This document shows positions 9,670 through 29,260 of a DNA stretch of 61,180 nucleotides, in pieces; the stretch's first letter is position 1; each line of letters begins with the position of its first letter. The notes under the pieces were generated by a model. The model ran no database searches. It worked only from the letters and a program-made list of their open reading frames with translations, and was not told where the DNA came from. A program made the translations under genes and the position numbers. Source of the stretch: Bacteroidales bacterium (GTDB lineage: Bacteria; Bacteroidota; Bacteroidia; Bacteroidales; PUMT01). Where the stretch lies: the NCBI GenBank assembly GCA_007135095.1, contig SLJO01000048.1, positions 1 through 61,180 on the forward strand. Reading direction: 5' to 3'.

Positions 9670-10881
9670 ATGAAGAAACTGACCCTGGCAATACTGGTTT
9701 TTATGGCCATGATCCCCGTTTTACTCCCCCAGTCCTCTGAAAACTGGCGGGGGCCCGGGAGAATGGGCATATACAATGAGAGCGGACTGCTGCAGGAATG
9801 GCCTGCCGGCGGGCCTGAAATGCTGTGGGCTTATGAGGGGCTGGGCAAGGGATTCACCTCCCCTGTAATTGCCGATGGCAGAATCTATATTACCGGCATG
9901 GAAGGAGAGACAGGCTTCCTGTATGTTATTTCCATGGACGGGAAGCCTGAAAGGAAATACCCCTATGGCCCGGAGTTCCATCAAAGCTATCCCGGAAGCC
10001 GGAGCACACCTGCCGTTGTTGATGACATGGTATATATTGTCAGCGGGCACGGGGTGCTGGTGTGCATGGATAAAAATAACGGGGACATAAAATGGCGCCG
10101 TGACCTGTTCAATGATTTTGACGGCAGAAATATACGATGGGGCTTTACTGAGAACCTGCTGGTGGACGGCGACCGGATCTACTGCACGCCGGGAGGAAAA
10201 AAATACAATCTCGTTGCTCTCAACCGCCACAACGGCGAACTGATCTGGGCCAGCGAGGGCAGCGGGAGGCTGTCAGCCTACTGTTCGCCGCTCCTGGTAA
10301 ACCATTATGGCAAAAGCATGCTGATTACCATGATGGAAAGGCATATAGTCGGCCTTGATGCCCTCAGCGGCCGGGTGCTGTGGTCTCACCCCTATGCCAA
10401 CAACAGGAACATCCATCCCAACACCCCGATATACCACCAGGGCAGCATCTTTGCATTCAGCGGCTATGGCATGGGGGGGATAAAGCTGAAGCTCAATTCG
10501 GTGGGCGATGCAGTGGCCCAGGAATGGTTCAGCGATGATCTTGACAATCAGATGGGTGGCACCGTCCTGGTTGACGGCTTTATTTACGGATCGGGCGACA
10601 GGAACAGGTTCTGGTTTTGTGTGGACTGGGAAACGGGGAAGACGGTCTATTCAGCACGCGACTTTGCCAAAGGAACGGTGATCTATGCCGACGGCCGGCT
10701 TTATTGTTATACCGAAAGAGGTGAACTGGTGCTTGTTGAACCTGCTGCCGACCGGTTTATCGTAAGGGGGCAGGCAGATGTTACGCTCGGGTCGGAGCAG
10801 CACTGGGCCCACCCGGTTATCGGTAACGGGGTCCTGTACATCAGACATGGCAACGCACTGATGGCCTATAAAATCAGGTGA
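9670..10881 (+). CDS. PQQ-like beta-propeller repeat protein, secreted (paralog A)
   Basis: 403 aa; signal peptide; ENWRGPGRMGIYNESGLLQEWPAGGPEMLW plus repeated propeller-blade motifs (VYIVSG, NGDIKWRRD, GRLYCY). Confidence 0.87.
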   Translation: MKKLTLAILVFMAMIPVLLPQSSENWRGPGRMGIYNESGLLQEWPAGGPEMLWAYEGLGKGFTSPVIADGRIYITGMEGETGFLYVISMDGKPERKYPYGPEFHQSYPGSRSTPAVVDDMVYIVSGHGVLVCMDKNNGDIKWRRDLFNDFDGRNIRWGFTENLLVDGDRIYCTPGGKKYNLVALNRHNGELIWASEGSGRLSAYCSPLLVNHYGKSMLITMMERHIVGLDALSGRVLWSHPYANNRNIHPNTPIYHQGSIFAFSGYGMGGIKLKLNSVGDAVAQEWFSDDLDNQMGGTVLVDGFIYGSGDRNRFWFCVDWETGKTVYSARDFAKGTVIYADGRLYCYTERGELVLVEPAADRFIVRGQADVTLGSEQHWAHPVIGNGVLYIRHGNALMAYKIR

Positions 10882-10939
10882 GTTGGTCCTGCGGGAAAGC
10901 CCTGGCATGTGAAACTGTAAATCCTTTAAAACCATTGTA

Positions 10940-12151
10940 ATGAAGACATTGATGCTTTTAACTCTGATGTTGCTAACCTGTGTTTCCGGTTCACAGGGAC
11001 AGGCGGCCGATAACTGGCGGGGTCCTGACAGGCAGGGTATTTTTCATGAAACCGGCCTGCTGCAGGACTGGAATGAGGGCGGCCCCGAATTGCTCTGGTC
11101 ATATGGCCGGCTGGGCGAGGGGTTTTCCTCGCCGGTAATGGCAAACGGCAAAATCTACATCACGGGGATGGAAGGCAGCACGGGCTATGTATATATACTG
11201 TCCATGAATGGCCGCCTTGAGAAAAAATTCCCCTACGGCCCCGAGTTCACTGAAAGCTACCAGGGGACACGCAGCACACCGACGGTGGTCAGGAACCTGG
11301 TTTATATTGTAAGCGGCCAGGGATTGCTGGTCTGCATAAACCAGGACAACGGCGAGATAGTATGGCGGCGCGATATGTTCGCTGATTTCGGGGGCAGGAA
11401 CATCCGCTGGGGGGTGACCGAAAACCTGCTTATAGAAGAAGACATACTGTACTGCTCTCCCGGTGGTGAAAAGTACAACATTGTTGCCCTTGACCGCCAT
11501 AACGGTGAGGTGATCTGGGCAACCCGGGCAGCCGGGGGCGTGTCGGCCTACTGCTCTCCGCTGCTGGTTGACCATTACGGGAGGAAAATGCTGATAACCC
11601 ACATGGCATACCATATTGTCGGCATAGATGCCCGCAACGGAAGGCTGATGTGGTCGTTCTCCCATGTCAACAGGCATGAGATCCATCCAAACACCCCTAT
11701 ATATCATGAAGGCAGCGTATTCGCATTCAGCGGGAACGGCAAGGGCGGGGTTAAGCTGAAAATTTCCTCGGTGGGTGACGCGGCAACAATAGAGTGGACA
11801 AACAGTGACCTTGACAACCTGATGGGTGGTGCTGTCCTGGTTGATGGTTATATCTACGGGTCAGGCCACCGGAACAGGTCATGGTTTATGGTGGACTGGG
11901 AGACGGGAGAAACTGTGTATTCATCGCGCAATATCGCCAACGGCACGGTTATATATGCGGACGGGCGGCTCTACTGCTACAGTGAAAGAGGCGAGCTGGT
12001 CCTGCTTGAGCCGGCTAAGGGTGGTTTCAAAGAAAGAGGCAGGAAGAATATTACGCTGGGTTCCAATCAGCACTGGGCTCACCTGGTTATTAACAATGGC
12101 ATTCTCTACCTCAGGCGGGGAAATGCCCTTATGGCCTATAAAATAAGTTGA
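10940..12151 (+). CDS. PQQ-like beta-propeller repeat protein, secreted (paralog B)
   Basis: 403 aa, same length as and collinearly similar to the preceding gene; DNWRGPDRQGIFHETGLLQDWNEGGPELLW. Confidence 0.87.
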   Translation: MKTLMLLTLMLLTCVSGSQGQAADNWRGPDRQGIFHETGLLQDWNEGGPELLWSYGRLGEGFSSPVMANGKIYITGMEGSTGYVYILSMNGRLEKKFPYGPEFTESYQGTRSTPTVVRNLVYIVSGQGLLVCINQDNGEIVWRRDMFADFGGRNIRWGVTENLLIEEDILYCSPGGEKYNIVALDRHNGEVIWATRAAGGVSAYCSPLLVDHYGRKMLITHMAYHIVGIDARNGRLMWSFSHVNRHEIHPNTPIYHEGSVFAFSGNGKGGVKLKISSVGDAATIEWTNSDLDNLMGGAVLVDGYIYGSGHRNRSWFMVDWETGETVYSSRNIANGTVIYADGRLYCYSERGELVLLEPAKGGFKERGRKNITLGSNQHWAHLVINNGILYLRRGNALMAYKIS

Positions 12152-12227
12152 AAGCTGCCTTTTTGGCCAGGGGGATCACCTGCCCGCGGCCGGCAGAACG
12201 GAGTAGCTGACCTGTAATTTGCCAGTT

Positions 12228-13664
12228 ATGAGATATCTGATCTACAAGCATTTGAAATTTCTGCCGGTGACCACCTTTGTTCTCGGGCTCCTGGCTGTCG
12301 GCTGGTGGATCAGTTACAGTCCCCTGCCAGTCATGGAGCTATCCCTTCCCGGCGCCGACGGTTACATCCATCCTGCAGGGCAGCCTGATGAAAATATTAT
12401 TATCGGTGAATACTTCCAGGAGCTCTACACCATGGATCCGGCCCGTGGAGAAAACTGGCCGGGCTTCAGGGGCCAGCACCATGACAACATTTACCGCAAC
12501 AGGATGCCTCTTGTCAGCAATTTCTCCCAGGGCGGCAACGAAATACTCTGGTCGGTCAGCCTTGGGGAGGGCCATGCGGGACCTGCCATATGGGAAGGCC
12601 TGGTTTACCTGCTTGACTATGATGAGGAAAAACGGGCCGATATGCTGAGATGCTTCTCACTCGAAACCGGCAGGGAGATCTGGCGCAGGTGGTATGACGT
12701 GCATGTAAGGAGAAACCACGGGATGTCCCGCACTGTTCCGGCAGTGACCGAAGATTATATACTCACCATGGGTCCGCGCGGTCATATAATGTGCCTGGAT
12801 CGCGCAAGCGGCGATCTGCTCTGGGTAATGGACCTGGAAAAGGACTGGGGAACGGAAATACCACTTTGGTATACCGGCCAGTGCCCGCTGATCGATAACG
12901 GGGTGGCGGTAATCGCCCCCGGAGGAGATGCGCTGATGATCGGGGTGGACTGTGCAACGGGAGAGGTGCTGTGGGAAACTCCCAACCCCGGCGGCTGGGA
13001 GATGTCGCACTCTTCGGTGATACCATATACATTTGGAGGAAGGAAGATGTATGTGTACAGTGCCATTGGCGGTGCGGTGGGCGTGGCTGCCGAAGGCCCC
13101 GATGCAGGGGAGATACTGTGGAAAGTGCCTCAATGGAATCACCGGGTGATAGCCGCCTCGCCGGTATGCATGCCTGACGGGAAAATATTCCTGACAGCAG
13201 GGTACGGCGCGGGGAGCATGGTCCTGCAGCTTCACGCCGGTGGCGGGGGTTTTAAGGCAGAGATCCTTGAAACATTCAGGCCGGGCGAGGGATTGTCAAG
13301 TGAGCAGCAAACCCCTGTTTACGCCGGGGGGCACCTGTTCGGGGTGCTTCCCAAGGATGCCCGCACACTGAGAAACCAGTTCGTCTGCGTAGACCCCGCA
13401 GATTTCACCTCGTTCGTGTGGACCAGCGGTTCAACAGCAAGGTTCGGGCTCGGCCCGTTTATCCTTGCCGATGACAAGTTCTACCTTCTGGATGATGACG
13501 GCACCCTTTATATTATTGAGATGAGCCTGCAGGAGTTCAGGCAGCTCGATGCCATGCAGATCATCGATAACGGCCATGATGCATGGGCGCCGCTGGCTAT
13601 GGCAGACGGATACCTCCTGCTAAGGGACTCCCATACAATGGTATGCATTGACATAAAAAGATAA
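12228..13664 (+). CDS. Membrane-anchored PQQ-like beta-propeller protein
   Basis: N-terminal TM (FLPVTTFVLGLLAVGWWISY), ENWPGFRGQHHDNIYRN, blades with GREIWRRW, SGDLLWVMD, TGEVLWETP; ATG at 12228 preferred over TTG at 12219. Confidence 0.83.
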   Translation: MRYLIYKHLKFLPVTTFVLGLLAVGWWISYSPLPVMELSLPGADGYIHPAGQPDENIIIGEYFQELYTMDPARGENWPGFRGQHHDNIYRNRMPLVSNFSQGGNEILWSVSLGEGHAGPAIWEGLVYLLDYDEEKRADMLRCFSLETGREIWRRWYDVHVRRNHGMSRTVPAVTEDYILTMGPRGHIMCLDRASGDLLWVMDLEKDWGTEIPLWYTGQCPLIDNGVAVIAPGGDALMIGVDCATGEVLWETPNPGGWEMSHSSVIPYTFGGRKMYVYSAIGGAVGVAAEGPDAGEILWKVPQWNHRVIAASPVCMPDGKIFLTAGYGAGSMVLQLHAGGGGFKAEILETFRPGEGLSSEQQTPVYAGGHLFGVLPKDARTLRNQFVCVDPADFTSFVWTSGSTARFGLGPFILADDKFYLLDDDGTLYIIEMSLQEFRQLDAMQIIDNGHDAWAPLAMADGYLLLRDSHTMVCIDIKR

Positions 13665-13670
13665 GGCAAT

Positions 13671-14654
13671 ATGAGAAAACCGTTAATCACCATACTCGTG
13701 TTCCTGGCAACCATTACCATCATAGCTGTGATAATGGCAGATTATAAATCAACCAGGCGGGGAAAAGGGCCGGCAAATCCGTATGCCTTCAACGTGGATG
13801 AGTACAGGTCGGTGCCGCCGGAGCTGGTCCGCTGGGAAGAGGTCAGGCAGGTAACAATCGATGGCGGCATTCCACGGGCCATCGCCTATGGCAGGGGCAA
13901 TATTTATCTCGCTGCCGGCAATGAGATCCAGGTGATAGCGGGCGACTGGAGCAGGACACTGCGAAAAACCCTTGAATCAGTGCCGACGGGCATTGCCGTG
14001 GCCGGTGATGGCAGGATAATTATTTCCTTTTCCACTTATCTGGCGATACTGGATAAGCATGGTGACATCATTGAACAGTCTGTACCACTGCCCTCCGGCA
14101 GCCACTTTACCTCAGTGGCTGAATATGACGGCAATATCTATGTTGCCGATGCAACGGCAAGAAAGGTAAGGATATTTAACCCGGCCCTGGAACTCACCGG
14201 TGAATTTGCCGGTGAGTCGGGGGTATCGGAAACTCACGGCTTTATTGTGCCGGGCGCGCATTTCAGCCTTGCTGTCAACAGCGAGAATGAGCTGTGGATA
14301 ACCAATCCCGGCCTGCATGCCCTGCAAAACTATACTGCCGGGGGAAGGCTCCGCTCATACCTGCAAAACTCATCTTTCGGCATTGAAGGCTTCAGCGGAT
14401 GCTGCAATCCCGAGTATTTTGCCTTCCTTCCCGGCGGCGGGTTTGTCACCAGCGAAAAAGGGCTGATAAGGATCAAGGTGATGGATGAATCGGGTGAGGT
14501 GGTTTCTGTGGTGGCCCCCGGTGAGAAATTCAGGGGGGGCACCAGGGCGCCCGCAGTAGCCGTCGATGACCGGGGAAATGTGCTGGCACTGGATTTTGAC
14601 AGGAACATAATAAGGATATTTGAACCGCACGCTGTTGACCCGGCACAACGTTAA
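13671..14654 (+). CDS. NHL-like beta-propeller protein with N-terminal TM anchor and vicinal Cys pair
   Basis: 327 aa; TM at N-terminus; NIYLAAGNEIQVI..., NIYVADATARKVRIFNP; GFSGCCNPEYFAFLPGGGFVTSEKGLIRIKVMDESGEVVSVVAP. Confidence 0.75.
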   Translation: MRKPLITILVFLATITIIAVIMADYKSTRRGKGPANPYAFNVDEYRSVPPELVRWEEVRQVTIDGGIPRAIAYGRGNIYLAAGNEIQVIAGDWSRTLRKTLESVPTGIAVAGDGRIIISFSTYLAILDKHGDIIEQSVPLPSGSHFTSVAEYDGNIYVADATARKVRIFNPALELTGEFAGESGVSETHGFIVPGAHFSLAVNSENELWITNPGLHALQNYTAGGRLRSYLQNSSFGIEGFSGCCNPEYFAFLPGGGFVTSEKGLIRIKVMDESGEVVSVVAPGEKFRGGTRAPAVAVDDRGNVLALDFDRNIIRIFEPHAVDPAQR

Positions 14655-14927: not shown

Positions 14928-15500
14928 GTGGAAAGAAAAAAAACCAAAAACAGGAGGGAGTTCATCCGCAGCAGCATGCGCTTTGGAATGGTGCTGGCAC
15001 TGGGTGGTGCCGGGGGACTGGCATTCAGGCATTCAGCAGGCGATAAGTGGGTGTGGCAGGTTGACCCTTTTAAATGTTCATGGTGCGGACGGTGCGCCAC
15101 GCATTGCGTGCTCAGCCCTTCAGCGGTAAAATGCATGCATGCCTACGATCTGTGTGGTTACTGCGACCTTTGCGGCGGGTACCTGATACCCGGCCATTCG
15201 GCCCGTTCCACCGCCGCCGAGAACCAGCTCTGCCCGACGGCAGCAATAGAGAGGAAGTTCATAGAGGAGCCTTACTACCAGTACACCATTAACGAGGACC
15301 TGTGCATTGGCTGTGCAAAATGCGTGGAGGGTTGTTCGGCTTTCGGGAACGGCTCGCTGCACCTGCAGGTAAACCACGAAATATGTGTTAACTGCAATGA
15401 ATGCGCCATTGCCAGGTCGTGCCCCTCCGATGCCGTTAAAAGAGTAAGGGGCTCAGCGCCTTACCTTATGAAAGGGGATTTTTCCCGTGATCAGACATGA
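14928..15500 (+). CDS. Tat-signal multi-[4Fe-4S] ferredoxin-like protein
   Basis: 190 aa, GTG start; NRREFIRSS Tat motif; CSWCGRCATHC, CGYCDLCGG, CIGCAKCVEGC, CVNCNECAIARSC. Confidence 0.83.
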   Translation: MERKKTKNRREFIRSSMRFGMVLALGGAGGLAFRHSAGDKWVWQVDPFKCSWCGRCATHCVLSPSAVKCMHAYDLCGYCDLCGGYLIPGHSARSTAAENQLCPTAAIERKFIEEPYYQYTINEDLCIGCAKCVEGCSAFGNGSLHLQVNHEICVNCNECAIARSCPSDAVKRVRGSAPYLMKGDFSRDQT

Positions 15501-16827
15501 CGAAATAATTAAACCGGGGCCTCAGCATGCCTCCAGGCTGAAGCTTGAAAAAACGAATATTTTGCACTTTAAAAACATCATATTGCCATTCCTGCTGCTT
15601 CTGTTAATTGCCCTTTCAGTTGATTCCACCGCACAGCAGCGCTTCCCCATGCCGGAATTTGAATCGGGCTACCAGCATCCCGAGGTATCCGCTCCGGAGC
15701 CCCGCTCCCTGGCACTCGAGTATATCGATGTGTTGGTGCTGCTGGCTTTTCTCTCTGTAACTTCCTGGCTTGTCATCAGGAAGCGTTCCAGGAAATGGAT
15801 ACTGGGACTGGTGGTGGCTGCCCTGCTCTACTTCGGGTTCTGGCGCAATGGCTGCATCTGCCCCATCGGTTCGGTGCAGAACATGGCTTTGTCGTTTTCC
15901 GATCCCGGCTATGCGGTATCATACACCGTCATTGCATTTTTCATGCTTCCGCTGCTGTTCAGCCTTGGCTTCGGCAGGGTGTTCTGCGGCACCGCCTGCC
16001 CGCTCGGTGCAATACAGGATCTTGTGATCATCAGGCCTGTAAAGGTTCCTGCCCGGGTCAGCAAATCCCTGGGGATGTTCCCGTTTGTTTATCTTGCACT
16101 GGCAGTGCTCTATGCATCAACCGGCACCGGCTTTGTAATATGCAGGTATGACCCGTTTATCGGGATATTCCGCATGGGTGCGGAGTTTCATCTTATAGTG
16201 CTCGGTATTGCATTCCTGCTGGCAGGCATGTTCGTGGCACGGCCGTATTGCCGGTTTGTTTGTCCCTATGGCGCATTGCTGAAGGTGACCTCCATGTTCT
16301 CAAAGCACCACATTTCAATAACCCCTTCACAATGCATAGAATGTAAGCTTTGCAGCGACTCATGCCCTTTTGGGGCAATAGACAGGCCGGTACCCGAAAG
16401 GGCAATAAGTGAAATGAAGGGCAAAACCGGGCATTTCATGCTCTACGCCGCAGTTATCCCGCTTCTTATGATGGCAGGCGGGTGGGCTCTTTCATCCTCC
16501 CATATTTTTCTCTCACGTGCGCATCCTGATGTCTACCTGGCACATCTTCTCATTGATAATCCCGGGGTAATGGATGATACCGAAAACCTGGATGTGCAGA
16601 CCTTCCTGGGATCAGACCGCACCATGGAATCACTGGTGCATGACGCGGAAGCGATCCAGGCAGCCTTTCTCAGGGGATCATGGATTACCGGGGCATTTAT
16701 CGGGCTTGTGGCAGGGCTGTTCCTTGTATCGCAGTCCATAATACGGCGCCGCACCGGCTACCACCCCAACAGGGGCGACTGCCTGAGCTGCGGCAGATGC
16801 CTTAAATACTGCCCTGTGCAGAAATAA
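15487..16827 (+). CDS. NosR/NapH-like polytopic membrane polyferredoxin
   Basis: 446 aa; multiple TMs; CICPIGSVQN, CGTACPLGAIQD, CRFVCPYGALLK, ferredoxin motif CIECKLCSDSCPFGA and C-terminal CLSCGRCLKYCP; overlaps upstream gene by 14 nt. Confidence 0.85.
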   Translation: MIRHDEIIKPGPQHASRLKLEKTNILHFKNIILPFLLLLLIALSVDSTAQQRFPMPEFESGYQHPEVSAPEPRSLALEYIDVLVLLAFLSVTSWLVIRKRSRKWILGLVVAALLYFGFWRNGCICPIGSVQNMALSFSDPGYAVSYTVIAFFMLPLLFSLGFGRVFCGTACPLGAIQDLVIIRPVKVPARVSKSLGMFPFVYLALAVLYASTGTGFVICRYDPFIGIFRMGAEFHLIVLGIAFLLAGMFVARPYCRFVCPYGALLKVTSMFSKHHISITPSQCIECKLCSDSCPFGAIDRPVPERAISEMKGKTGHFMLYAAVIPLLMMAGGWALSSSHIFLSRAHPDVYLAHLLIDNPGVMDDTENLDVQTFLGSDRTMESLVHDAEAIQAAFLRGSWITGAFIGLVAGLFLVSQSIIRRRTGYHPNRGDCLSCGRCLKYCPVQK

Positions 16828-16890: not shown

Positions 16891-18708
16891 ATGGATATTA
16901 ACGAAAAAATAAAAACAGCAAGGCATACCTCCACGGTTGCAGGGGCATTTTGCCTGGTGATAAGCCTTTTGCTGATTCTTAACTACTGGCAGATGCAGGC
17001 CGTTGACCCGCTCGGGGGCACAGCGCTTGAAACACTGGTGCAACGCCTGGCAATGGAACCGGGCAACGAGCAGCTCCAAAAAGAGATAAGGGAGCTTGAC
17101 CTTCTTGCCCGCAAGGCATACTTCACCAGTATCTGGCAGGTGAGAACCGGCGGTTACCTGCTTCTTTTCGCATCCATGATCCTGGTGACTGCCCTGAGGG
17201 TATATTACTCGCTGACAGCAAAAATCAACAAGCCCCCCGAGGAGGAGGAGGACCAGGTCAGCGGCCGCGCGCTATCGCAGAAATGGATAATGGCGGGCAC
17301 CGGCATGTTTATTATGGCAGCGCTGGTGGCGGCATTTACCGTATCGGATCCTGTGGAAAAATATTTTGCCGGCACAGCCACCGCCCCTGAAGTGAAGCAA
17401 ACAATAGAGCAGATAACGGTGTCGGATGCTCCTTCCGCGCCCCCCTCTGTCCCACTGGATGCTGATGAGAGCGCGGGGGAGGATCCCGTTACGGAAGTCC
17501 CCGCCACCGCGCCCGCGGAACCTGCCCCGGGGCCGGCCCCGGCACTCTTCCCGGGGGAAAGCGACATCAGGCAGAATCACAATGCCTTCAGGGGACCGTG
17601 GGGAAACGGGGTAGTATACCACACCAATGTTCCCGTTGAATGGGACGGCGAATCGGGCAGGAATATCCTGTGGGAGGTGCCCGTGCCGATGCATGCCTAC
17701 AGCTCGCCGGTAATATGGGATGATAAGCTGTTTATCACCGGCGCCGATGAGCAGGAGAGGAAAGTGTTCTGTTTCGACAGGCATACCGGCGTGCTTCTCT
17801 GGGAAAACAGCGCAACCAGCATTCCCGGGTCACCGGCAATACCGCCGCGCACAACCGACGATACCGGACTCGGTGCCCCATCGGTGACAACCGATGGTAT
17901 TGGCGTTTATGCTGTTTTCGGTACGGGCGATATAATAGCGTTCGGCATGGACGGCGCCAGGCTGTGGGCCCGGAACCTGGGGGTGCCGGACAATCATTAC
18001 GGGCACTCCTCGTCGCTGCTGTCCCACGGCGAAAAGCTTTTCGTGCAGTATGACGACAACCGGAGCGGACGTATTTTTTGCCTGAATGTTCATACGGGTG
18101 AGACAATATGGGACATATCCAGGCCGTCACGCATCTCCTGGGCCTCTCCCGTGCTGGCCCTGGTCGACAACCGTTACCAGCTGGTGGTCAGCGGCAATCC
18201 CATAATTGCCGGATACGATATCGAATCGGGAAATGAATTGTGGAGCGTTGAGGCAATGAGTGGTGAGGTAGGCCCGTCGCCTGCCTTTGGCGGGGGACTG
18301 GTTTATGCGGCAAATGAATATGCGAAGATGGTGGCCATCGATCCGGGCAGCGGCAGCATAGTGTGGGAGGATAATTACTACCTTCCGGAAGTGTCGAGCC
18401 CAACATATAGCGGGGGCCTCCTGTTCATATCAACAACTTATGCACTGGTGGCTTGTTTCGATGCAAAAACAGGCGAACTGATGTGGGAATACGATACCGG
18501 CGATATATTCTACTCGTCTCCCATAGTGGCAGACGGAAGGGTTTACGTGACTGACATCAGGGGTGATACATACATATTCGAAATTGACAGGGAGCCGAAA
18601 CTGGCCGCCACAAATTCCCTGGGTGAGGGGGTGTATACCGTTCCCGCCTTCGCCGATGGCAGGATATACATCAGGGGCGAGAAAAATCTTTACTGCATCG
18701 GCAATTAA
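16891..18708 (+). CDS. Membrane-anchored PQQ-like beta-propeller protein with novel multi-TM N-terminal module
   Basis: 605 aa; three predicted TM segments, Pro/Ala/Glu-rich linker, then HNAFRGPWGNGVVYHTNVPVEW...NILWEVPVP and propeller blades. Confidence 0.83.
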   Translation: MDINEKIKTARHTSTVAGAFCLVISLLLILNYWQMQAVDPLGGTALETLVQRLAMEPGNEQLQKEIRELDLLARKAYFTSIWQVRTGGYLLLFASMILVTALRVYYSLTAKINKPPEEEEDQVSGRALSQKWIMAGTGMFIMAALVAAFTVSDPVEKYFAGTATAPEVKQTIEQITVSDAPSAPPSVPLDADESAGEDPVTEVPATAPAEPAPGPAPALFPGESDIRQNHNAFRGPWGNGVVYHTNVPVEWDGESGRNILWEVPVPMHAYSSPVIWDDKLFITGADEQERKVFCFDRHTGVLLWENSATSIPGSPAIPPRTTDDTGLGAPSVTTDGIGVYAVFGTGDIIAFGMDGARLWARNLGVPDNHYGHSSSLLSHGEKLFVQYDDNRSGRIFCLNVHTGETIWDISRPSRISWASPVLALVDNRYQLVVSGNPIIAGYDIESGNELWSVEAMSGEVGPSPAFGGGLVYAANEYAKMVAIDPGSGSIVWEDNYYLPEVSSPTYSGGLLFISTTYALVACFDAKTGELMWEYDTGDIFYSSPIVADGRVYVTDIRGDTYIFEIDREPKLAATNSLGEGVYTVPAFADGRIYIRGEKNLYCIGN

Positions 18709-18722
18709 AAGTCTGTAACAGA

Positions 18723-21083
18723 ATGGAAGGACACGACAACGACATATATGCTGAGATTGACAAAATTATCTCCCTTTCGGGGAAGGATAAGAGTGCGGTG
18801 ATCCCCATACTGCAGTCCATCCAGAACAGGTATAACTATCTGCCGCGGGAGGCGCTGAAAAGGGTGTGCAGCATATCGGATATTACGCCGGCCGAAATAA
18901 CCGGGGTGGCAAGTTTCTATTCACAGTTCAGGTTTGAACCCGCAGGCAGGCATATCGTCAGGGTTTGTACCGGCACAGCATGTCATGTCAAGGGCGCGAT
19001 GCTTGTGCGCGAGGCGATAGCAAGGCATATGAATCTTGCCCCCGGCGCATCGACCGACGAGAAGAGGCTATTCACCCTTGAAAATGTTGCCTGCCTGGGC
19101 TGCTGCACCCTGGCTCCCGTTGTGCAGATTGATGATATCACCTACGGCCATGTAAGCGCCCGGATGGCGGCGGGGGTGATGAAGGATTTTCTCAGCCGCG
19201 GCAGCAGCGGGAAAAAGCCAAAAGGGGTCATTGTACCCGGCGGTGATCTGCAGGGGGAGATACGGGTCGGCCTGGGCTCCTGCTGCATTGCCAGCGGAAG
19301 CAATGAAATAAAGGAGGCCGTGGAAGAGTCGGTAATGCGCGACGGGATAAACGTGAACATCAAGCAGGTGGGCTGTGTGGGCATGTGCCACCAGGTACCG
19401 CTGGTGGAGGTTGTCACAGAGGACAACGGTGCGACACAAACAAAGCTGTATGCAAAGGTGTCGCCCCCCGACATCACATCCATAGTCCGCCACCACTTCA
19501 GTCCGCCAAACCTTCTTACCCGCATCAAAAACAGCATAACCCGGCTTGCCGAAAACATACAGTCTGACGACCACTGGGAAGGGATAGAAAGATACTCGAT
19601 CGATGTGCGCGAAAAACAGGTCGCCTCCTTCCTGGGCAACCAGCTGCCTATCGCCACCCGGCACAGGGGGGTGTCCGACCCCCTCGATATTGACGATTAT
19701 ATTGACAGGGGAGGATTCGCCGGATTGAACAGGGCGCTGACAATGGAACCCGGGGCAATCATCACAGCGGTCAGGGAAAGCGGCCTGAGGGGCAGGGGTG
19801 GCGCAGGATTTCCCGCGGGCGTGAAATGGGAAACAACCGCCTCCCAGCCCGGGGGCAGGAAAATACTCATATGTAACGGTGATGAGGGCGACCCGGGGGC
19901 TTTTATGGACAGGATGCTGCTTGAATCCTATCCTTTCCGTGTCATCGAGGGCATGACCATCGCTGCAAGGGCCATTGGTGCGAGGGAGGGAATATTCTAT
20001 ATAAGGGCTGAGTACCCCCTGGCAGTAAGGCGCATCGCAAGGGCCGCAGAAATTTGCAGCGAAAGGGGGCTGCTGGGTGATGACATCGGGGGCAGCGGCA
20101 TGAGCTTTACTGTCACCATTAAGGAGGGCGCAGGTGCCTTTGTGTGCGGCGAAGAAACCGCCCTGATAGAATCCATAGAGGGCAGAAGGGGCTTCCCCAG
20201 GCCCAGGCCTCCCTTCCCGGCGGTGCGGGGCTTGTGGGGCATGCCCACATTGGTGAACAACACCGAGACATTTGCCATGGTGCCATATATTCTTGATCAG
20301 GGAGGCGAAAAATTTGCAGCCATCGGCACACCCGGGAGCACGGGGACAAAAGTTTTTGCCCTTGCCGGTAAAATAAGGCGCGGGGGCCTCATCGAGGTAC
20401 CCATGGGGATAAGCATCAATGAGATAGTTGAAGAAATAGGGGGAGGCATTGCCGGTGGCAAAAAGTTCAAGGCGGTGCAGATAGGAGGCCCCTCGGGCGG
20501 CTGTATACCTCATTACCTTGGGGATATGGCGGTGGACTTCGGTTCGCTGATCGGGGCGGGCGCGATGATGGGCAGCGGGGGACTGGTGGTGCTGGATTCG
20601 GGTGATTGTATGGTGGATATGGCACGATACTTCCTCTCCTTCACCCAGTCTGAGTCGTGCGGCAAATGCACCTTCTGCAGGGTGGGCACAAGGAGGATGC
20701 TGAACATCCTTGACAGGCTCTGCAGTGGCAAGGCCGCTGCCGGCGAGCTGGAGGAGCTGGAAAAGCTGTCCCACCAGGTGAAAAAAGGAAGCCTGTGCGG
20801 TCTTGGCAGGACAGCGCCAAACCCGGTGCTCTCTACCCTGAAATATTTCCGCGATGAGTACCAGGCCCACCTGGAAGGCAGGTGCCCCACAGGAAAATGC
20901 AAGGATTTGATAACATATTATATTGACGATGAGTGCATAGGCTGCACCATCTGCTCGCAGCAGTGCCCGGTGGAGGCCATCGGGTTCAGGCCACATGAAA
21001 AGCATGATATTGACACTTCCAGATGCACCAAATGCGATATCTGCAGGGAGGCCTGTCCGGCGGGTGCGGTAAAGATCAGATAA
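18723..21083 (+). CDS. NuoE-NuoF-type NADH diaphorase fusion with C-terminal 2[4Fe-4S] ferredoxin domain
   Basis: 786 aa; NuoE-type 2Fe-2S (CTGTACHVKGA...CLGCC), second thioredoxin-like 2Fe-2S region (GSCCIASGS...GCVGMC), NuoF core (RGRGGAGFPAGVKWE, GDEGDPGAFMDRMLLES, ESCGKCTFCRVGTRRM), terminal CIGCTICSQQCP/CTKCDICREACP. Confidence 0.92.
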   Translation: MEGHDNDIYAEIDKIISLSGKDKSAVIPILQSIQNRYNYLPREALKRVCSISDITPAEITGVASFYSQFRFEPAGRHIVRVCTGTACHVKGAMLVREAIARHMNLAPGASTDEKRLFTLENVACLGCCTLAPVVQIDDITYGHVSARMAAGVMKDFLSRGSSGKKPKGVIVPGGDLQGEIRVGLGSCCIASGSNEIKEAVEESVMRDGINVNIKQVGCVGMCHQVPLVEVVTEDNGATQTKLYAKVSPPDITSIVRHHFSPPNLLTRIKNSITRLAENIQSDDHWEGIERYSIDVREKQVASFLGNQLPIATRHRGVSDPLDIDDYIDRGGFAGLNRALTMEPGAIITAVRESGLRGRGGAGFPAGVKWETTASQPGGRKILICNGDEGDPGAFMDRMLLESYPFRVIEGMTIAARAIGAREGIFYIRAEYPLAVRRIARAAEICSERGLLGDDIGGSGMSFTVTIKEGAGAFVCGEETALIESIEGRRGFPRPRPPFPAVRGLWGMPTLVNNTETFAMVPYILDQGGEKFAAIGTPGSTGTKVFALAGKIRRGGLIEVPMGISINEIVEEIGGGIAGGKKFKAVQIGGPSGGCIPHYLGDMAVDFGSLIGAGAMMGSGGLVVLDSGDCMVDMARYFLSFTQSESCGKCTFCRVGTRRMLNILDRLCSGKAAAGELEELEKLSHQVKKGSLCGLGRTAPNPVLSTLKYFRDEYQAHLEGRCPTGKCKDLITYYIDDECIGCTICSQQCPVEAIGFRPHEKHDIDTSRCTKCDICREACPAGAVKIR

Positions 21084-21086: not shown

Positions 21087-22640
21087 ATGGTTAAACTCAA
21101 AATAGACAACAGGCAGATCACTGCCACAGAGGGAGCAACAATCCTTGAAGCCGCCCGTGCAGCCGGCATAGCAATACCTGCCATGTGCAACAACAGCGAC
21201 TCAGGGCATTTTGCCTCGTGCATGGTTTGCCTGGTCAGCGAGAGGAACTCCGGGTCGATGCTCCCTGCATGCTCGGCCATGGCGGGCGGGGGAATGGATA
21301 TAATTACCAGTGACCCCGCGATCGTTGAATCACGGAAAATGGCGCTGGAGCTGCTGCTTTCCGAGCATATCGGCGACTGTGAGGGGCCCTGCCGCGTTTC
21401 CTGTCCCGCCGGCATGGACATACCACTGATGAATACCTTCCTTGCCGCGGGAATGACCGACAAGGCCCTTGAAACGGTGATGAACCACATAGCCTTTCCC
21501 TCGGTACTGGGCAGGATATGTCCCGCTCCCTGTGAAGGGGCCTGTCACAGGAAAGGGATTGACGCCCCGGTAGCGGTCTGCGCACTAAAGCGGTTCGCCG
21601 GCGATAACGGAAAAAGAACTTTTACCCCCTCCCCTGCCAGGCAAGGCAGGGTTGCCATAGTCGGTGCAGGGATCGCGGGACTGTCGGCCGCATATTACCT
21701 GCGGCTAAAAGGCATATCCTGCGAATTGTTCGACAGCAGTCCCCTGCCCGGCGGTGCCCTGAGATACCTGGCCGGTGAAGGCAAACTGGACAGGAAGGTG
21801 CTGGAGGAAGAAATCAGCTTCATACTCGGTTCGGGGGTGCAGTTTCACCCGGGCACCACGGTTGACAAAAGCCGTTTTACCGAGCTTGCCCTCGGTTACG
21901 ACGCCGTCGTGGTTGCAACGGGCAATTTTTCAGAAGACATATCACATTGGGGGCTCACCAATAACGGCAAGCAGGTGACCGTCGACAAACAAAGCCTGCA
22001 GACCAGCATCGCGAACGTATTTGCCGCGGGGAATGTGAACAGGAGCACCCGCCTGGCTGTCCGCTCCGCCGGACAGGGCCGGGAGGCAGCCTGCAGTATA
22101 GCCCGGATGCTGGAAGGGGGTGAGCCCGCCGGGCAGAGGCGGTTTAACTCCCGTGTCGGCAGACTGCGGCAGTCAGAACATGCCACCTTCATGAAAGAGG
22201 CCTCTGCCGTGGCGAGGCTTGAACCCTCAAACGGCAGGGGATACTCCCCCGGGGAAGCGGCCAGTGAGGCTGCCAGGTGCATGCATTGCGAGTGCCTGAA
22301 GCCCGAAGGCTGCACCCTGCGCGATCTGGCCGGCCGTTACGGCGCATCACAAAGAAGGTTCGGCTACGAGGAGAGAAAAACTATCAAAAAGAACAGTGAA
22401 CACGACCTGCTGACCCATGAGCCGGGCAAATGCATTAAATGCGGCATCTGCGTCAGACTCTCAGCCGGGAACGGGGAGAAACCCGGCCTTGCCTACCTGG
22501 GCAGGGGTTATGACGTCGAGATAGCAGTTCCCTTCGGTGAGAGTATCAGCGGGGCGATAAAAAAGAGCGGGGCACTGCTGGCCCAATCCTGCCCCACCGG
22601 CGCACTCTCCCTTAAGGCGGGCAAAATCATAAAAATATGA
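21087..22640 (+). CDS. 2Fe-2S / GltD-like FAD / Fe-S fusion oxidoreductase
   Basis: 517 aa; NuoG/HndD-like N-terminal 2Fe-2S (CNNSDSGHFASCMVC...LPAC), GltD-like Fe-S helix bundle (CEGPCRVSCPAGMDIP...GRICPAPCEGACHR), FAD motif VAIVGAGIAGLSAAYYL, C-terminal CIKCGIC. Confidence 0.87.
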   Translation: MVKLKIDNRQITATEGATILEAARAAGIAIPAMCNNSDSGHFASCMVCLVSERNSGSMLPACSAMAGGGMDIITSDPAIVESRKMALELLLSEHIGDCEGPCRVSCPAGMDIPLMNTFLAAGMTDKALETVMNHIAFPSVLGRICPAPCEGACHRKGIDAPVAVCALKRFAGDNGKRTFTPSPARQGRVAIVGAGIAGLSAAYYLRLKGISCELFDSSPLPGGALRYLAGEGKLDRKVLEEEISFILGSGVQFHPGTTVDKSRFTELALGYDAVVVATGNFSEDISHWGLTNNGKQVTVDKQSLQTSIANVFAAGNVNRSTRLAVRSAGQGREAACSIARMLEGGEPAGQRRFNSRVGRLRQSEHATFMKEASAVARLEPSNGRGYSPGEAASEAARCMHCECLKPEGCTLRDLAGRYGASQRRFGYEERKTIKKNSEHDLLTHEPGKCIKCGICVRLSAGNGEKPGLAYLGRGYDVEIAVPFGESISGAIKKSGALLAQSCPTGALSLKAGKIIKI

Positions 22641-23815
22641 ATACTGAATCCACATACCACCGCAACCCTGCCACGGCGGCCCCGGGCCGCATGCATTCAT
22701 TCACAGCCCCTTATTTGCTGTTGATTGCCCTGCTGGCCTGCCTGCCGGTTTACGCGACCAGCCAGGGAGAAGACGGATGGCAAAACTTCCGGGGGGATGC
22801 GCGGCTCACCGGCACCACCGGGCAGTCGATCCCGGCCGGTCCCAAACCGCTGTGGACATTCCAGGCCGGTGATGAGATAAAATCCTCGCCGGTGATTTAT
22901 AACTCCCGCATTGTGATAGGAGCCGGCAACGGCATTGTTTATTGCCTGGGGATGGAAGGAAACCCGCTGTGGCAATATGACACCGGAAACACAATCGAGG
23001 CTCCTGCACTGATCAGCGGCAACAGGGTTTATGTAGGAAATCTCGGGGGCACCCTCTTCTGCCTGGACCTTTTGAGCGGGAAGGTGCTCTGGCGGTATGA
23101 ATGCGACAACCAGATCATGGCCTCACCAAATATCTGGAACGGGGGTACCCGCGACATGATCCTGGTGGGCAGCTACGATTACTACCTGCATGCGGTTGAT
23201 GCAGAAAACGGCAGTCCCCTCTGGAAGTATGAACTATACAACTACCTGAACTCCGCGGTAGCAATTGAAAATGACATGGCCGTTTTTGGCGGATGCGACG
23301 GCTACCTTCACAGGGTAGACCTTAACACGGGAGACCCGCTGCCGGAGATCGAAATAGCCAGCTACGTGGCCGGCTCGCCTGCCCTGGAATATGGCACAGC
23401 CTTTATAGGCGATTATGACGGGGTGTTCACCGCGGTCGATTACCTGGAAGGAGAAATTTTATGGACCTGGCAGGATACCGAAAGAAACCTGCCCTTCGTC
23501 TCCTCGCCGTCAATTCACGGCAACAGGGTGATAATCGGAAACAGGGACAGGTTTGTTTACAGCCTTGATAAAAGGACCGGGAAAATACAATGGAAGACAA
23601 ACACGGGAAGCCGGGTTGATGCCTCCGCCGTAACAGACGGCCAAAGGGTTCTGGTGGCAAATATGAGGGGTGATATATTGTTGCTTGATATTGAAACGGG
23701 CTTGAGATTATGGACCTTCGAGACCGGCAGCCCGGTTTCAGGAAGCCCGGGGGTATCGGAAGGCAAAATCATTATCGGCACCAGCGACGGCACCCTCTGG
23801 TGCTTTGGCGGGTAA
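22637..23815 (+). CDS. PQQ-like beta-propeller repeat protein, secreted
   Basis: 392 aa; signal peptide; GWQNFRGDARLTG...PKPLWTFQAGDEIKSSPVIYNSRIVIGAGNG; overlaps upstream stop by ATGA. Confidence 0.85.
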   Translation: MNTESTYHRNPATAAPGRMHSFTAPYLLLIALLACLPVYATSQGEDGWQNFRGDARLTGTTGQSIPAGPKPLWTFQAGDEIKSSPVIYNSRIVIGAGNGIVYCLGMEGNPLWQYDTGNTIEAPALISGNRVYVGNLGGTLFCLDLLSGKVLWRYECDNQIMASPNIWNGGTRDMILVGSYDYYLHAVDAENGSPLWKYELYNYLNSAVAIENDMAVFGGCDGYLHRVDLNTGDPLPEIEIASYVAGSPALEYGTAFIGDYDGVFTAVDYLEGEILWTWQDTERNLPFVSSPSIHGNRVIIGNRDRFVYSLDKRTGKIQWKTNTGSRVDASAVTDGQRVLVANMRGDILLLDIETGLRLWTFETGSPVSGSPGVSEGKIIIGTSDGTLWCFGG

Positions 23816-23865: not shown

Positions 23866-25149
23866 ATGAAGATAGTTCATATCATCCCCGGGTCAGGAGG
23901 CAGTTTTTACTGCGGTAACTGCCTGCGCGACAGCAAGTATTTTGATTCGCTCAGGAAGCTGGGCCATGATGCACTGAAAGTGCCGATGTATCTCCCCTTG
24001 TTTGAAAATGACATGATCAACGGCCAGGTGCCTGTTTTCTATGGCGCAGTGAACCTGTACCTGAAGCAGGCATACCCCTTTTTCAGAAATGCCCCAAAAT
24101 GGCTTAACAATGTGCTCAATACCAGGCCCGTGCTTAAGCAGGCGGCAAAAATGGCAGGATCAACAAGGGCGGCCGGCCTGGAGGATATGACAATTTCGAT
24201 GCTGATGGGCGAACACGGAAACCAGGCCAGGGAGCTTGAGGAGCTGACAAAATGGCTCGAGGTGCATTTCAGGCCTGATATTATCCATCTCTCCAATGCC
24301 CTTTTGCTCGGTCTTGCGGGCAAACTCAGGAAACGGCTGGGCATTCCCGTGTTGTGCAGCCTCCAGGATGAAGATGTATGGGTTGATGTGATGTCGGCGG
24401 GAAACCGGGAAAGGGTGTGGCAGCTTATGGGAGAAAAAGCACAGGACATTGAAGCCTTTGTTTCGGTAAGCCATTATTTCAGCAGGCTGATGACAGAGAA
24501 AATGAAGCTGGACAGTGGCCGGCTGCATACGCTGCACCTGGGGGTGGACCCGGATGATTATCAGTTCATCAATTCAGCCGGCAAGGAAAGGGCTATTGGC
24601 TTTCTTTCACGTATGAACCGGGAAAACGGACTGGATATTCTTGTCGATGCATTCATCCTGCTCAAAGGTGACAGCAGAAACAAGGATGTAAAGCTGTATA
24701 TTAGTGGCGGCAGCACCGGCGATGACGCTGCATTTGTTAAAGCTCAGAAAAACAGGATCATGGGGGCGGGCATAAGCCAGGACGTGATTTTCCTTGAGAA
24801 CTTTGAAAATGAGCACCGGCATATCTTCTTTGAAAGGGTATCGGTGCTTTCGGTTCCGGTGCGCGGGGGAGAGGCCTTCGGGATCTACCTGGCCGAGGCA
24901 ATGGCCAGCGGCATACCGGTGGTGCAGCCGGCCCTGGGAGCCTTCCCGGAGATTATTGAGGCAACCGGCGGTGGACTCACCTACAGAGGAAATACCCCCG
25001 GGGAGCTTGCCGGCAGTCTTGAAAAACTACTTTCCGGCAGGGAGTTATTATCGGTGATGAGCATCAATGCCAGGAAGGGTGTTGAAGAGAAGTTCAACAT
25101 CAACACCCAGGCAGCACTGCTGGCTGATATTTACAAGGGGTTAATATAA
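23866..25149 (+). CDS. Glycosyltransferase, GT4-like
   Basis: 427 aa; GT-B fold signals: AIGFLSRMNRENGLDILVDAF, VPVRGGEAFGIYLAEAMASGIPVVQPALGAFPEII; N-terminal SFYCGNCLRD. Confidence 0.85.
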   Translation: MKIVHIIPGSGGSFYCGNCLRDSKYFDSLRKLGHDALKVPMYLPLFENDMINGQVPVFYGAVNLYLKQAYPFFRNAPKWLNNVLNTRPVLKQAAKMAGSTRAAGLEDMTISMLMGEHGNQARELEELTKWLEVHFRPDIIHLSNALLLGLAGKLRKRLGIPVLCSLQDEDVWVDVMSAGNRERVWQLMGEKAQDIEAFVSVSHYFSRLMTEKMKLDSGRLHTLHLGVDPDDYQFINSAGKERAIGFLSRMNRENGLDILVDAFILLKGDSRNKDVKLYISGGSTGDDAAFVKAQKNRIMGAGISQDVIFLENFENEHRHIFFERVSVLSVPVRGGEAFGIYLAEAMASGIPVVQPALGAFPEIIEATGGGLTYRGNTPGELAGSLEKLLSGRELLSVMSINARKGVEEKFNINTQAALLADIYKGLI

Positions 25150-25226: not shown

Positions 25227-25958
25227 ATGCTCCTGAGAGTTAACGACATATCGAAATCATACAAAAGCCGGTTTGGCAGGACCATCCGTGAGGTGCTTCG
25301 CGAAACCTCCCTTGTGCTGGAAAAGGGTGAAAAAATAGCTGTTGCAGGACCATCGGGATCAGGCAAAACCACCCTTTTGAACCTGATAGGGGCACTGGAT
25401 TTTCCCGATCAGGGAGAAATAATTTTTAATGGCAAACCGCTTTCCGGCATGACTGCAAAACAGCTGGCAGGATTCAGGAACCGGGAGATCGGTTTTATAT
25501 TCCAGTCCCATCACCTCCTGCCCCAGCTTACCCTGTGGGAAAATATTCTTGTGCCCGTGCTGCCGGGCAATGAACCCAGAAAACTGGTTTACAGGCGGGC
25601 CGCAGAGCTGCTGAAAGAGACCGGATTGTGGGAGATTCGCCACCAGAAGCCGGGCGAGCTTTCCGGCGGTGAATGTCAGCGCACGGCGGTGGTCAGGGCG
25701 CTGATCAACCGTCCCTCGCTGGTGCTTGCCGATGAACCAACAGGCTCGCTCGACAGCGAAAATGCCAATATGCTTATCGACCTGCTTGTCAGGCTGGGCA
25801 CAAAGGAGGAAAGCGCAATGGTGGTGGTAACCCATTCCATGGAGATCGCCTCGGGGATGGATAAAATATACAACCTCGGCAGCGGGAAACTAAAAAGGGC
25901 CGTCCCCGGGCAGGGCCGCAAGGAACAGGGAGCACCGGAACAAGACAAAGATGCCTGA
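25227..25958 (+). CDS. ABC transporter ATP-binding protein (LolD/MacB-like)
   Basis: 243 aa; Walker A GPSGSGKTT, signature LSGGECQR, Walker B LVLADEPTGSLD. Confidence 0.93.
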   Translation: MLLRVNDISKSYKSRFGRTIREVLRETSLVLEKGEKIAVAGPSGSGKTTLLNLIGALDFPDQGEIIFNGKPLSGMTAKQLAGFRNREIGFIFQSHHLLPQLTLWENILVPVLPGNEPRKLVYRRAAELLKETGLWEIRHQKPGELSGGECQRTAVVRALINRPSLVLADEPTGSLDSENANMLIDLLVRLGTKEESAMVVVTHSMEIASGMDKIYNLGSGKLKRAVPGQGRKEQGAPEQDKDA

Positions 25959-25960: not shown

Positions 25961-28900
25961 ATGAACCTTAGTAAACTTACAATACGTTCATTTTATCACT
26001 ATTTCGGGGCAAACATAATGGCTGCCGCGGGTCTTGCCGTTGCAACAGCCGTAATTACAGGGGCATTTATAACAGGCGACTCGCTGAGCCATTCGCTGGA
26101 AAAAACCGTTATCATGAGGCTGGGCAATATCAGCCATTCGGTCACGGCCGGCGAAAGGCTGTTTACCATGGAAATGGGCAACAGGTTTGCGCAGATCAGC
26201 GGCCTGCCGGTTTCGGGGGGCCTGGTGGCTCAGGGCATGGCTGCCGCCGAAGGAGGCGGCGCGGAAAGGCTCAACAGGATCCAGGTGATCGGGGTGGACA
26301 GTGCGTTCAGCCGGCTGCTGGGCACGGGCTTCCAATACTCCGGCAGGGGGCCCGGAGAGGTTGTCATAAGTGAGAACATGGCCCGCCGGATGAATCTTCA
26401 GGCAGGCGATTTTTTCCAGCTCAGGATGAAAAGGACAGGGCTGATACCAATGAACACCCCCCTGGTATCGGATGCCGACCAGACCGTTGCCCGGAGGGTC
26501 AGGGTGGCGGCTGTGGCAGGGGACGGCGATTACGGACGGTTTAACCTGCAGGTTTCACAGACTGCCCCCTTCAATGTCTGGGCCGATATAGGCTGGCTTA
26601 ATATGGTGATGGGGCTCGAAGGGATGGCCAATATCCTCTTTATTGCATCCCCTGCATCTGAAACCGCCGATCTGCATCGCTTCCTGGAGGGCTCCTGGGA
26701 TATTGAAGATGCCAATCTCACCCTCAGCCGGATACCGGGAGAAGAGAGGCTTGCAATAAGCTCGGAAAGGGTTTTTATTGAAGATCACTTATCCTCGGGC
26801 CTCACCGGCCTGTTCCCGCAAAGCACTGCGTTCCTCACCTATTTTGTGAACTCCATTGAAAAGGCTGGGAACAGCACGCCCTACTCATTCGTTACTGCCG
26901 GCAGCCGCTACTTGCTGGAGGACCATGAAACCGTTATCAGCCGGTGGCTGGCCGATGACCTTTCGGCGGGTGTTGGCGACAGCCTGTTGATGCGCTACTG
27001 GGAAACAGGTGCGCTCCGCGAACTGAAGGAAAATAAAACCTGGCTTGTTGTGAAGGGCATCGCAGAGATGGAGGATGTCGCCCCCGACAGTGTGCTGATG
27101 CCCCATCTGCCGGGATTATCCGACGCCGGGAACTGCAGGGACTGGGACACGGGTGTGCCCGTGGAGCTGGGGAGGATAAGAGGCAAAGATGAACTTTACT
27201 GGGATGAATACAGGGGAACACCAAAGGCCTACATTTCCCTTTCCCTCGGGCAGCAGTTATGGACCAACAGGTTCGGAAATCTCACGTCGGTATGGCTGCC
27301 CGGGGAGATGGATGACCCGGTGGAGGTGCGCGAGGTGATCAGATCGGCTGTAAGCCCGTCACAGTCGGGCTTCAGGGTGAATGAGCTGCGGGAGCGCGGA
27401 CTGGAGTCGGCCGCTGGTGGCGTCGACTTCGGCATGCTGTTCGGGGGTCTCGGCTTTTTTGTGATGCTGGCCGGCGTCATGCTTTTTTTCCTGCTGCAGC
27501 TTTATAATATGGAAAAACGGGCTGACCAGATCAGGCTCTTTTCCTCCCTTGGATACCCGCCTGGGCTGATCAGGAAAATATACCTTGGCGAGGGAATGCT
27601 TGTGGCCATGGCGGGAACACTATCGGGACTTCTGCTGGCAGTGCTCTACGGGAAAATGGTCCATTGGGCACTCTCGGGAATGTGGCAGGATATAGTGCGC
27701 ACAGGTGTGCTGGAGATGGTGGTGAAACCCCTTTCACTGCTCACCGGCTTTACAATCGGCATCTCAATCGCCTTCCTGGTTATCATCCTCAGCATTAACC
27801 GGTATGTTCTTAAAAAACCCCGCTCCGGCACTGACGCGGCAGGGGAAAAGGGAAAATCACGCTGCGGCGCATTGCAAAATACACGGCACAGGATCCTGGG
27901 CAGGCATATCGCCGCAGCGCTGCTGACCCTGGGGGGAGCAGTGATACTGCTCAGGCAGCTTGTATGGGTTGCGGGCTGGGATCCTGCAGGCTTTTTTTTC
28001 GCCGGGGGACTGCTGGTTCCAGCCTTTCTGCTTTTCCTCGATGCCCTGCTGCTCCGGCTGGAAGATAAAAATTACGGTCATGTAAGCATGACAATGCTGG
28101 GCATGAAGAACCTGGTAAGGAACCGCACCCGCAGCCTTTCGGTCATCATACTGCTTGCGCTGGGTATATTCACCGTAATAGCCACCGGTTCGCACCGCAA
28201 GGATGCGGCAGCCTCCCAGACACACTCCACCGGCGGAACGGGAGGCTTTCTCTTTGTAACAGAAGTCACCGTGCCGGTTCTTTATGACCTTAACAGCAGG
28301 GAGGCTCAACTGGATTTCAACATACCCCCCGGCCTTAACTTCGTGCAGTTCATGGCCAGCTATGCGGATGATGCCAGCTGCCTGAACCTTAACCAGGTGG
28401 CCAATCCCCGGATCCTATCTGTCAACCCTTCACTGCTGAGCGGAAGGTTCAGTTTTGCCAGGGGCGCTGACCGGCCCGGCGGGGAGGATCCCTGGCAGAG
28501 CCTGGAGGCTGAGATTGCAGGCAGCCAGGCCGGCGGCAGCCCCATTATCCCTGCCATTGCCGATCAGGCAGTGATACAATGGGGACTGGGCAAGAGGGTT
28601 GGCGACACGCTGACCTATACTGATGAAAGAGGCGAAGAGCTCAGGCTTCTGCTGGTGGGGGGACTGGCGAATTCGGTGTTCCAGGGCAATGTTATCATCG
28701 CCGAAAAGCATTTCCTGAGACATTTCCCGGCTACCAGCGGAAGCAGCTTTTTTTTGGTGGAAGGGGCACCCGAAAGCCAGGATCTCATCAGCGAGGAGCT
28801 TGAGTTCATATTCCGCGACCACGGCTGGGAAATGGAAACGGCGGCCGGCCGCCTCAACAGGTTCAATACAATTGAAAATACTTACCTGGGGATATTCATG

Positions 28901-29260
28901 GTGCTCGGTGCGCTGGGCTTGTTGCTGGGTGTGGTGGGCATTTCTGTCGTGATGGCCCGCAGTATCATGGAAAGAAAAAATGAGATCGCCCTGTACATCT
29001 CGCTTGGCTATACAAGAACGCAAATTACGGGGATCATGGTAAGGGAGTACGCGGCCCTCCTTGTCCTCGGACTTGCAGCAGGAGTGCCCCCTGCACTCAT
29101 TGCCGGCCTCCCTTCACTTTCAGGCAGCCAGTCGGCCAGTCCTGCATTCCCTGCCTTTCTGGCAGCAGCCATCTTTTTGAACGGAATGTTCTGGATAGTA
29201 ATAACTGCAAGGCTGCTGATAAAAAAGGGCGGCATCGTCACAGCCCTGAGAAACGACTGA
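25961..29260 (+). CDS. ABC transporter permease, large FtsX/MacB-like
   Basis: 1099 aa; N-terminal TM, MacB-like periplasmic domains, FtsX-type TM blocks ([60 protein letters not shown]). Confidence 0.88.

Follow-up and report, generated by a model that had tools for sequence, protein, structure and literature searches.

The open reading frame at 21087-22640 on the forward strand of the window (the whole 61,180-nucleotide stretch of Bacteroidales DNA analyzed here) codes for a 517-residue protein resembling GltD. The locus raises the question of how a flavoprotein of this type works without a second dinucleotide-binding fold, and with what it exchanges electrons. The first-pass annotation proposed that its FAD is an internal relay or a bifurcation site fed through Fe-S clusters, with NADH bound only by the product of the gene upstream.

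Domain architecture of BfuA' and its relatives

Judged from its sequence, the 21087-22640 product belongs to the Bfu family as a StnC/NfnA-type BfuA subunit that lacks the NAD(P) Rossmann domain; it is termed BfuA' here. The protein begins with a [2Fe-2S] domain (residues 1-92, 21087-21362; Pfam Fer2_4 at 1-75) containing C34, C45, C48, and C62, followed by a Fer4_20 (GltD/DPD II) Fe-S bundle (residues 93-175, 21363-21611; Pfam match at 98-175) with H94, C98, C102, C106, C145, C149, and C153. A single FAD-type Rossmann domain (residues 186-345, 21642-22121; motif GAGIAGLSAAYYL, with GN in place of GD) has its FAD-type dinucleotide motif from residue 188 in Pfam, and it includes a short connection (residues 280-310, 21924-22016) at the point where StnC has its NAD(P) Rossmann domain, so that about 160 residues are absent. 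The carboxyl-terminal NuoG-like Fe-S region (residues 391-510, 22257-22616, also on the forward strand) contains C398, C401, C403, C409, C449, C452, C455, and C502. Residues 94, 98, 102, and 106 make up an HxxxCxxxCxxxC site, and C398, C401, C403, and C409 are the second half of the split His/Cys site. All of the Cys/His positions named for the three Fe-S regions are kept in 77 of 77 family sequences, with C398 present in 76 and represented by one ambiguous residue in the other.

The Fer4_20 match bears out the GltD-type N-terminal Fe-S bundle of the first-pass annotation. The NuoG-like N terminus and C-terminal Fe-S segment that were described as gained are both present, but they belong to the ordinary StnC/NfnA architecture, for which a GltD unit built into a NuoG-like protein has been proposed (PMC7483475). 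The C-terminal FdhF-like domain of StnC is likewise missing from BfuA'. The top NCBIfam model is a GltD-like family that matches in two separate stretches far under its cut-off, and scores against TIGR01316/01317 (GltD/NfnB) are 107 bits versus a cut-off of 472 and 111 bits versus 448, below the family scores. A search of a viral fold library returned no match at E = 0.001 or better.

The absence of a second dinucleotide fold, claimed at the outset, holds in Pfam, phmmer, alignment, and structure prediction. The best Pyr_redox_2 stretch covers only the first 119 of 291 model positions. The phmmer alignment with NfnA (9bov_A) jumps from query 282/target 289 to query 271/target 426, which leaves about 137 residues of 9bov_A, between 289 and 426, with no counterpart in BfuA'. 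The segment at residues 268-345 is 78 residues long compared to 239 in the StnC encoded by the same genome, in which the NAD(P) Rossmann domain spans about 160 residues. An AlphaFold2 model built on a 52-member family alignment (pLDDT 93.6, pTM 0.90) has one five-stranded parallel set of the FAD type (188-192, 211-215, 252-254, 273-276, and 311-313), and the second complete dinucleotide-binding fold that would have contradicted the claim was looked for in this model and is absent. The nearest solved chains, and the top three Foldseek matches to the model, are NfnA from Caldicellulosiruptor (9bov_A), NfnA from Thermococcus sibiricus (9n5u_A), and StnC from Sporomusa (8oh5_C), with TM-scores of 0.84-0.88 on the query and 680-704 alignment columns for 517 residues. 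GltD, NfnB, and DPD rank after them with TM-scores of about 0.4.

Alignment of the relatives indicates that NAD(P)-domain loss is a property of a family and not of one gene. A search of 60 relatives retrieved forms of the same length with 41-64% identity to BfuA', and a scan of named genomes yielded 80 loci in about ten bacterial phyla. The Bacteroidales carriers include Draconibacterium, Maribellus, Marinifilum, and Prolixibacteraceae; the other loci are from Planctomycetota, Hydrogenedentota, Kiritimatiellota, Lentisphaeria, Aminicenantes, Armatimonadota, KSB1, and Spirochaetaceae. Of 247 genomes sampled from the order, 34 have a short-form match at E ≤ 1e-80, and in a phylum-wide genome sample the only match is in the window's own genome. 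The NAD(P) domain is missing from 76 of the 77 relatives that are long enough to judge, a figure that, coming from a scan seeded with short forms, does not give the frequency of domain loss without bias, and these 76 sequences form one clade with a support of 1.0. The exception (L130, 681 residues) keeps the domain and branches outside the NADP-less clade (support 1.0); it is a possible intermediate. An assembly error or local deletion was rejected based on the 76 relatives in one clade and the 34 of 247 genomes that have the short form. Relocation of the missing domain to a separate gene was also rejected, as no pyridine-nucleotide domain occurs among the neighboring genes scanned. In-frame stops in some relatives were dismissed because, where read out, they are normal terminal stops at the alignment end only.

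Some relatives have unusual settings. In L130 (1277-5239), the gene for the BfuA, which is without the FdhF-like part, follows KASIII-like (OleA-like) and alpha/beta-hydrolase (OleB-like) genes. In a Thermoguttaceae locus (L112, 5835-8675) a single 946-residue frame covers BfuA' and a C-terminal 3-beta-HSD/SDR domain, a possible fusion. A Lentisphaeria BfuA' (L121, 4244-5743) lies off the usual cluster, inside what by eye is an apparent cell-division region (MraW/PBP/FtsW/MurG-like).

Fe-S ligands and the FAD domain

The conserved Cys/His positions can be read as the C3-C7 path of StnC, which carries electrons from FAD/NADPH to StnAB (PMC10482914). The C1 and C2 clusters of StnC are described as a non-functional remnant (PMC10482914) and belong to the domain that BfuA' is without. 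StnC K170, which is implicated in binding the flavin-proximal cluster (PMC10482914), corresponds to K168, a position that is Lys in 64 of 77 sequences and His in 10. C165 is kept in 60 sequences.

Residues of the FAD domain drift. The flavin-N5 arginine of StnC (R239) corresponds to position 233, which is variable across the family; the flavin motif GD is present in 5 of 76 NADP-less members versus 13 of 13 full-length comparators and has turned into GN or GS; and YGIPxxRLP is lost in most members. Mean pairwise identity is 33% in the C-terminal half of the FAD domain versus 47-57% in the Fe-S parts, and it is 71% for the corresponding half in 12 StnC sequences, which are a narrower sample. 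In a Hydrogenedentota/Kiritimatiellales clade (support 0.99), most of this second half is gone and every Fe-S ligand is still in place, and two other sequences (L021 and L075) have shortened it separately. The GxGxxG of the FAD site is nearly intact (G193 in 77 of 77, G195 and G198 in 76 of 77), the acidic residue after strand 2 is near-universal, and most Bacteroidales members retain ATG or a near match. The model of an eroded relative (L117; 19 sequences, pLDDT 74.9) still has a confident Rossmann core. The retention of GxGxxG in 76 of 77 sequences suggests that many members may still bind FAD, and the fold in Bacteroidales members probably does so, but not as a hydride site or a bifurcation site. 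An Fe-S wire with a decaying FAD domain is favored over a bifurcating FAD because the ligands are kept and the FAD residues drift, although the nearly perfect GxGxxG means that FAD may matter more than the wire reading allows. The family would then exemplify a modular enzyme from which a substrate domain was excised and the wire retained, and whose FAD module has eroded by steps in different phyla.

The BfuC-BfuB fusion and the expected site of bifurcation

The gene that ends 3 bp upstream of BfuA' (18723-21083, forward strand) encodes a BfuC-BfuB fusion consisting, by Pfam, of NuoE, a thioredoxin-like [2Fe-2S] domain, the NuoF FMN/NADH domain, and two C-terminal [4Fe-4S] sites. Its top PDB match is NfnB (9n5u_B), the NfnB/StnB subunit of the NfnABC/StnABC complexes. 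Across 62 homologues, 266 residues are at least 90% conserved, and the FMN/NADH motifs, the NuoE 2Fe-2S site, and the two extra C-terminal 4Fe-4S sites are conserved at this level. The BfuC part is the NuoE domain at residues 12-155, with C82, C87, C124, and C128 conserved. The NuoF-type FMN/NADH site and the B1 cluster are represented by Complex1_51K and NADH_4Fe-4S matches, with the GRGGAGF region and C646, C649, C652, and C692 at 90% or more, and the extra BfuB clusters by a second 2Fe-2S_thioredx stretch and Fer4_21, with C738-C748 and C768-C778 conserved. These are the signature sites of the BfuBC core of the Bfu family (HydABC superfamily, Schut et al. 2022). Several BfuB proteins of about 1020-1040 residues (L141, L148, L149, and L151) have a C-terminal Fer4_20/FAD-NAD(P)-like extension, like sub-type I BfuB (PMC11406978).

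The strongly conserved NuoF-type FMN/NADH motifs and Fe-S ligands agree with the first-pass assignment of NADH to this subunit only, which is what would be expected. In StnABC the FMN module StnAB is the assigned site of bifurcation, and the StnC FAD is explicitly non-bifurcating (PMC10482914); the Bfu literature places bifurcation at the FMN/Fe-S core and treats the FAD of Nfn-Bfu as non-bifurcating (PMC9304861). Bifurcation or confurcation is expected at the FMN of the upstream BfuC-BfuB fusion. The window's genome has a separate complete StnABC with a StnC of 1203 residues, and BfuA' is therefore not the NADPH transhydrogenase of this genome. By eye, these StnABC genes (L051, 6011-12874) are followed by a gene for a small rubrerythrin-like protein.

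The gene cluster and the probable third redox partner

BfuA' and its partner lie in a conserved block of genes, all on the forward strand. Upstream are a PQQ-like propeller protein (PQQc, 12219-13664), an NHL-repeat protein with an N-terminal hydrophobic segment (13671-14654), a polyferredoxin with an RRxF (Tat-like) signal and 17 Cys that is predicted to be periplasmic (14928-15500), a NapH/NosR-like polytopic membrane Fe-S protein with conserved CxxxCP motifs and two CxxCxxCxxxCP sites (15487-16827), and a membrane protein combining three TM-like segments with a PQQ-like propeller (16891-18708). Downstream are a PQQ-like propeller with a hydrophobic N-terminal segment (PQQd, 22637-23815) whose start overlaps the BfuA' stop (ATGA), a GT4 glycosyltransferase (23866-25149), a LolD-like ABC ATPase (25227-25958), and a 1099-residue FtsX/MacB-type permease (25961-29260). 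In the NHL-repeat protein the GCCNP motif is near-invariant and little else is conserved, and the glycosyltransferase has a conserved N-terminal GGSFYCGNCLRD segment (CxxC).

Of the 50 loci whose upstream DNA is long enough, 41-46 have the upstream block through BfuCB (BfuCB 46, TM-propeller 43, NapH-like 41, Tat ferredoxin 41), and the PQQd-GT-ABC-FtsX block occurs in 26-28 of 43 loci with enough flank. Ten genomes were checked, some with BfuA' apart from the block; all ten have a BfuB-type gene and nine a NapH-like gene. In three genomes BfuA' has the downstream block only (L057, L061, and L065), and a close BfuCB homologue occurs elsewhere in 3/3, on one contig with the NapH-like gene in two. 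No NapH-like gene was found in the L058 genome, a BfuA' carrier that counts against a NapH-like partner. The NapH-like protein has seven TM-like segments by hydropathy, which is ambiguous as to sidedness, and scores 47.9 bits versus a cut-off of 213 for NapH/MauN (TIGR02163), below the family score, so that it is likened to NapH in its way of working only. NapGH, MauMN, and NosR likewise pair a Tat polyferredoxin with a membrane protein carrying CxxxCP and 4Fe-4S motifs, but the similarity is weak and under family cut-offs, and nitrate reductase, amine dehydrogenase, and N2O reductase genes are not among the conserved neighbors. No gene fusion joining BfuA' to the cluster membrane proteins was found among the relatives.

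We lean toward a Bfu-family enzyme from the Stn/NfnABC line whose Fe-S-wire BfuA' lost the NADPH site and now serves a NapH-like/Tat-ferredoxin third partner. BfuA' would derive from that transhydrogenase line (HydBC/StnAB core) by loss of the NADPH site and the FdhF-like appendix with the Fe-S wire left whole. The adjoining BfuC-BfuB would handle NADH (at FMN) and ferredoxin, with bifurcation or confurcation expected there, and the third redox partner, formerly NADP(H), would now most likely be the NapH-like membrane Fe-S protein with the Tat ferredoxin. We infer a route of the form NADH + ferredoxin <-> BfuCB <-> BfuA' clusters <-> membrane Fe-S protein <-> periplasmic ferredoxin. BfuA' electrons probably pass to or from the cell membrane/periplasm because the cluster encodes membrane and exported Fe-S proteins. 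Gene linkage is no proof of contact, and a soluble Bfu module and the membrane proteins could work in parallel. The propeller, glycosyltransferase, and ABC/FtsX genes are given no role by the wire reading. If it is true, the cell could drive electrons out through the membrane or draw them in without using Rnf, Nuo, or cytochromes, with NADH and ferredoxin together fixing the potential.

The FAD could have a larger part. With the NAD(P) domain gone, the BfuA' flavin would lie exposed and might swap electrons with a new partner, either a protein or a small molecule such as a quinone at the membrane, and feed the clusters as in StnC; the nearly universal GxGxxG and acidic residue, the ATG variants, and a Rossmann core that is confidently modeled in the eroded clade as well are in keeping with such a relay. 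The loss of YGIPxxRLP and the N5 arginine in most members, the rarity of GD, and a supported clade that dispenses with the second FAD half and keeps all clusters make it rather unlikely, and the internal relay of the first-pass annotation is thus possible, yet not favored. HdrA, the heterodisulfide reductase subunit, has a thioredoxin-reductase-type FAD domain without a normal NAD(P) domain, and flavoproteins lacking that domain can bifurcate; HdrA does not figure among the top sequence or fold matches of BfuA'. The HdrA precedent and the homology of BfuA' with NfnB count for an FAD that, as in NfnB or HdrA, receives electrons through Fe-S clusters and is itself the site of bifurcation. The arginine important in NfnB is not conserved in the family, the adjacent gene encodes a full Bfu-type FMN core, and StnC has an FAD that is experimentally non-bifurcating (PMC10482914). 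Together with the scarcity of GD and the half-FAD clade, these points make the bifurcating flavin proposed at first pass highly improbable.

The complex might instead work as a plain NADH (or ferredoxin) dehydrogenase, relaying electrons between NADH and the membrane Fe-S proteins with no bifurcation. Among BfuABC homologues with NuoF cores, some are non-bifurcating (PMC9304861), but they are without the extra BfuB clusters that BfuC-BfuB has, and we consider this reading improbable.

Within the Bfu/Stn family, BfuA' represents a new variant. StnABC of Sporomusa ovata (8oh5/8oh9) shares with it the NuoG-like/GltD-like subunit with 2Fe-2S, Fer4_20, split His/Cys, and C-terminal 4Fe-4S sites, the K170 position in most members, and NuoE- and NuoF-like partners. 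BfuA' differs from StnC in having neither the NAD(P) domain nor the FdhF-like domain with C1 and C2 and in not conserving R239, and its system differs in the fusion of the StnA and StnB counterparts and in the other gene neighbors. NfnABC (Nfn-Bfu) of Thermococcus sibiricus and Caldicellulosiruptor saccharolyticus (9n5u and 9bov) provides the top sequence and fold matches for both subunits, and 9n5u_A aligns with BfuA' in a one-cluster C-terminal arrangement, but the NfnABC BfuA binds NADP(H) with the domain that BfuA' is without.

Bfu enzymes are classed by their third substrate. The main text of Schut et al. 2022 gives the classes FeFe, NiFe, Nfn, F420, Fdh, Wor, Bam, Codh, Por, Mbh, Nuo, and Rub, none of which has there a BfuA' or NapH/Tat-ferredoxin/propeller partners, and 17 Bfu clades are left there without an assigned substrate. 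The literature searched for the BfuA' cluster contained no description of it. The anatomy of one widespread Bfu variant is now defined, and a membrane/periplasmic Fe-S relay stands as its candidate partner, which can be tested. More tentatively, and with more doubt than confidence, it may be an undescribed Bfu class of about ten phyla that reaches an extracytoplasmic third substrate through an NADP-less, Fe-S-only BfuA, a NapH-like conduit, a Tat polyferredoxin, and periplasmic propellers.

Elsewhere in the window, a tandem pair of PQQ-like propeller genes, each coding for 403 residues, lies upstream of the conserved block at 9670-12151, and an aromatic amino acid lyase gene (Lyase_aromatic, E = 1e-189) is present at 3884-5383.
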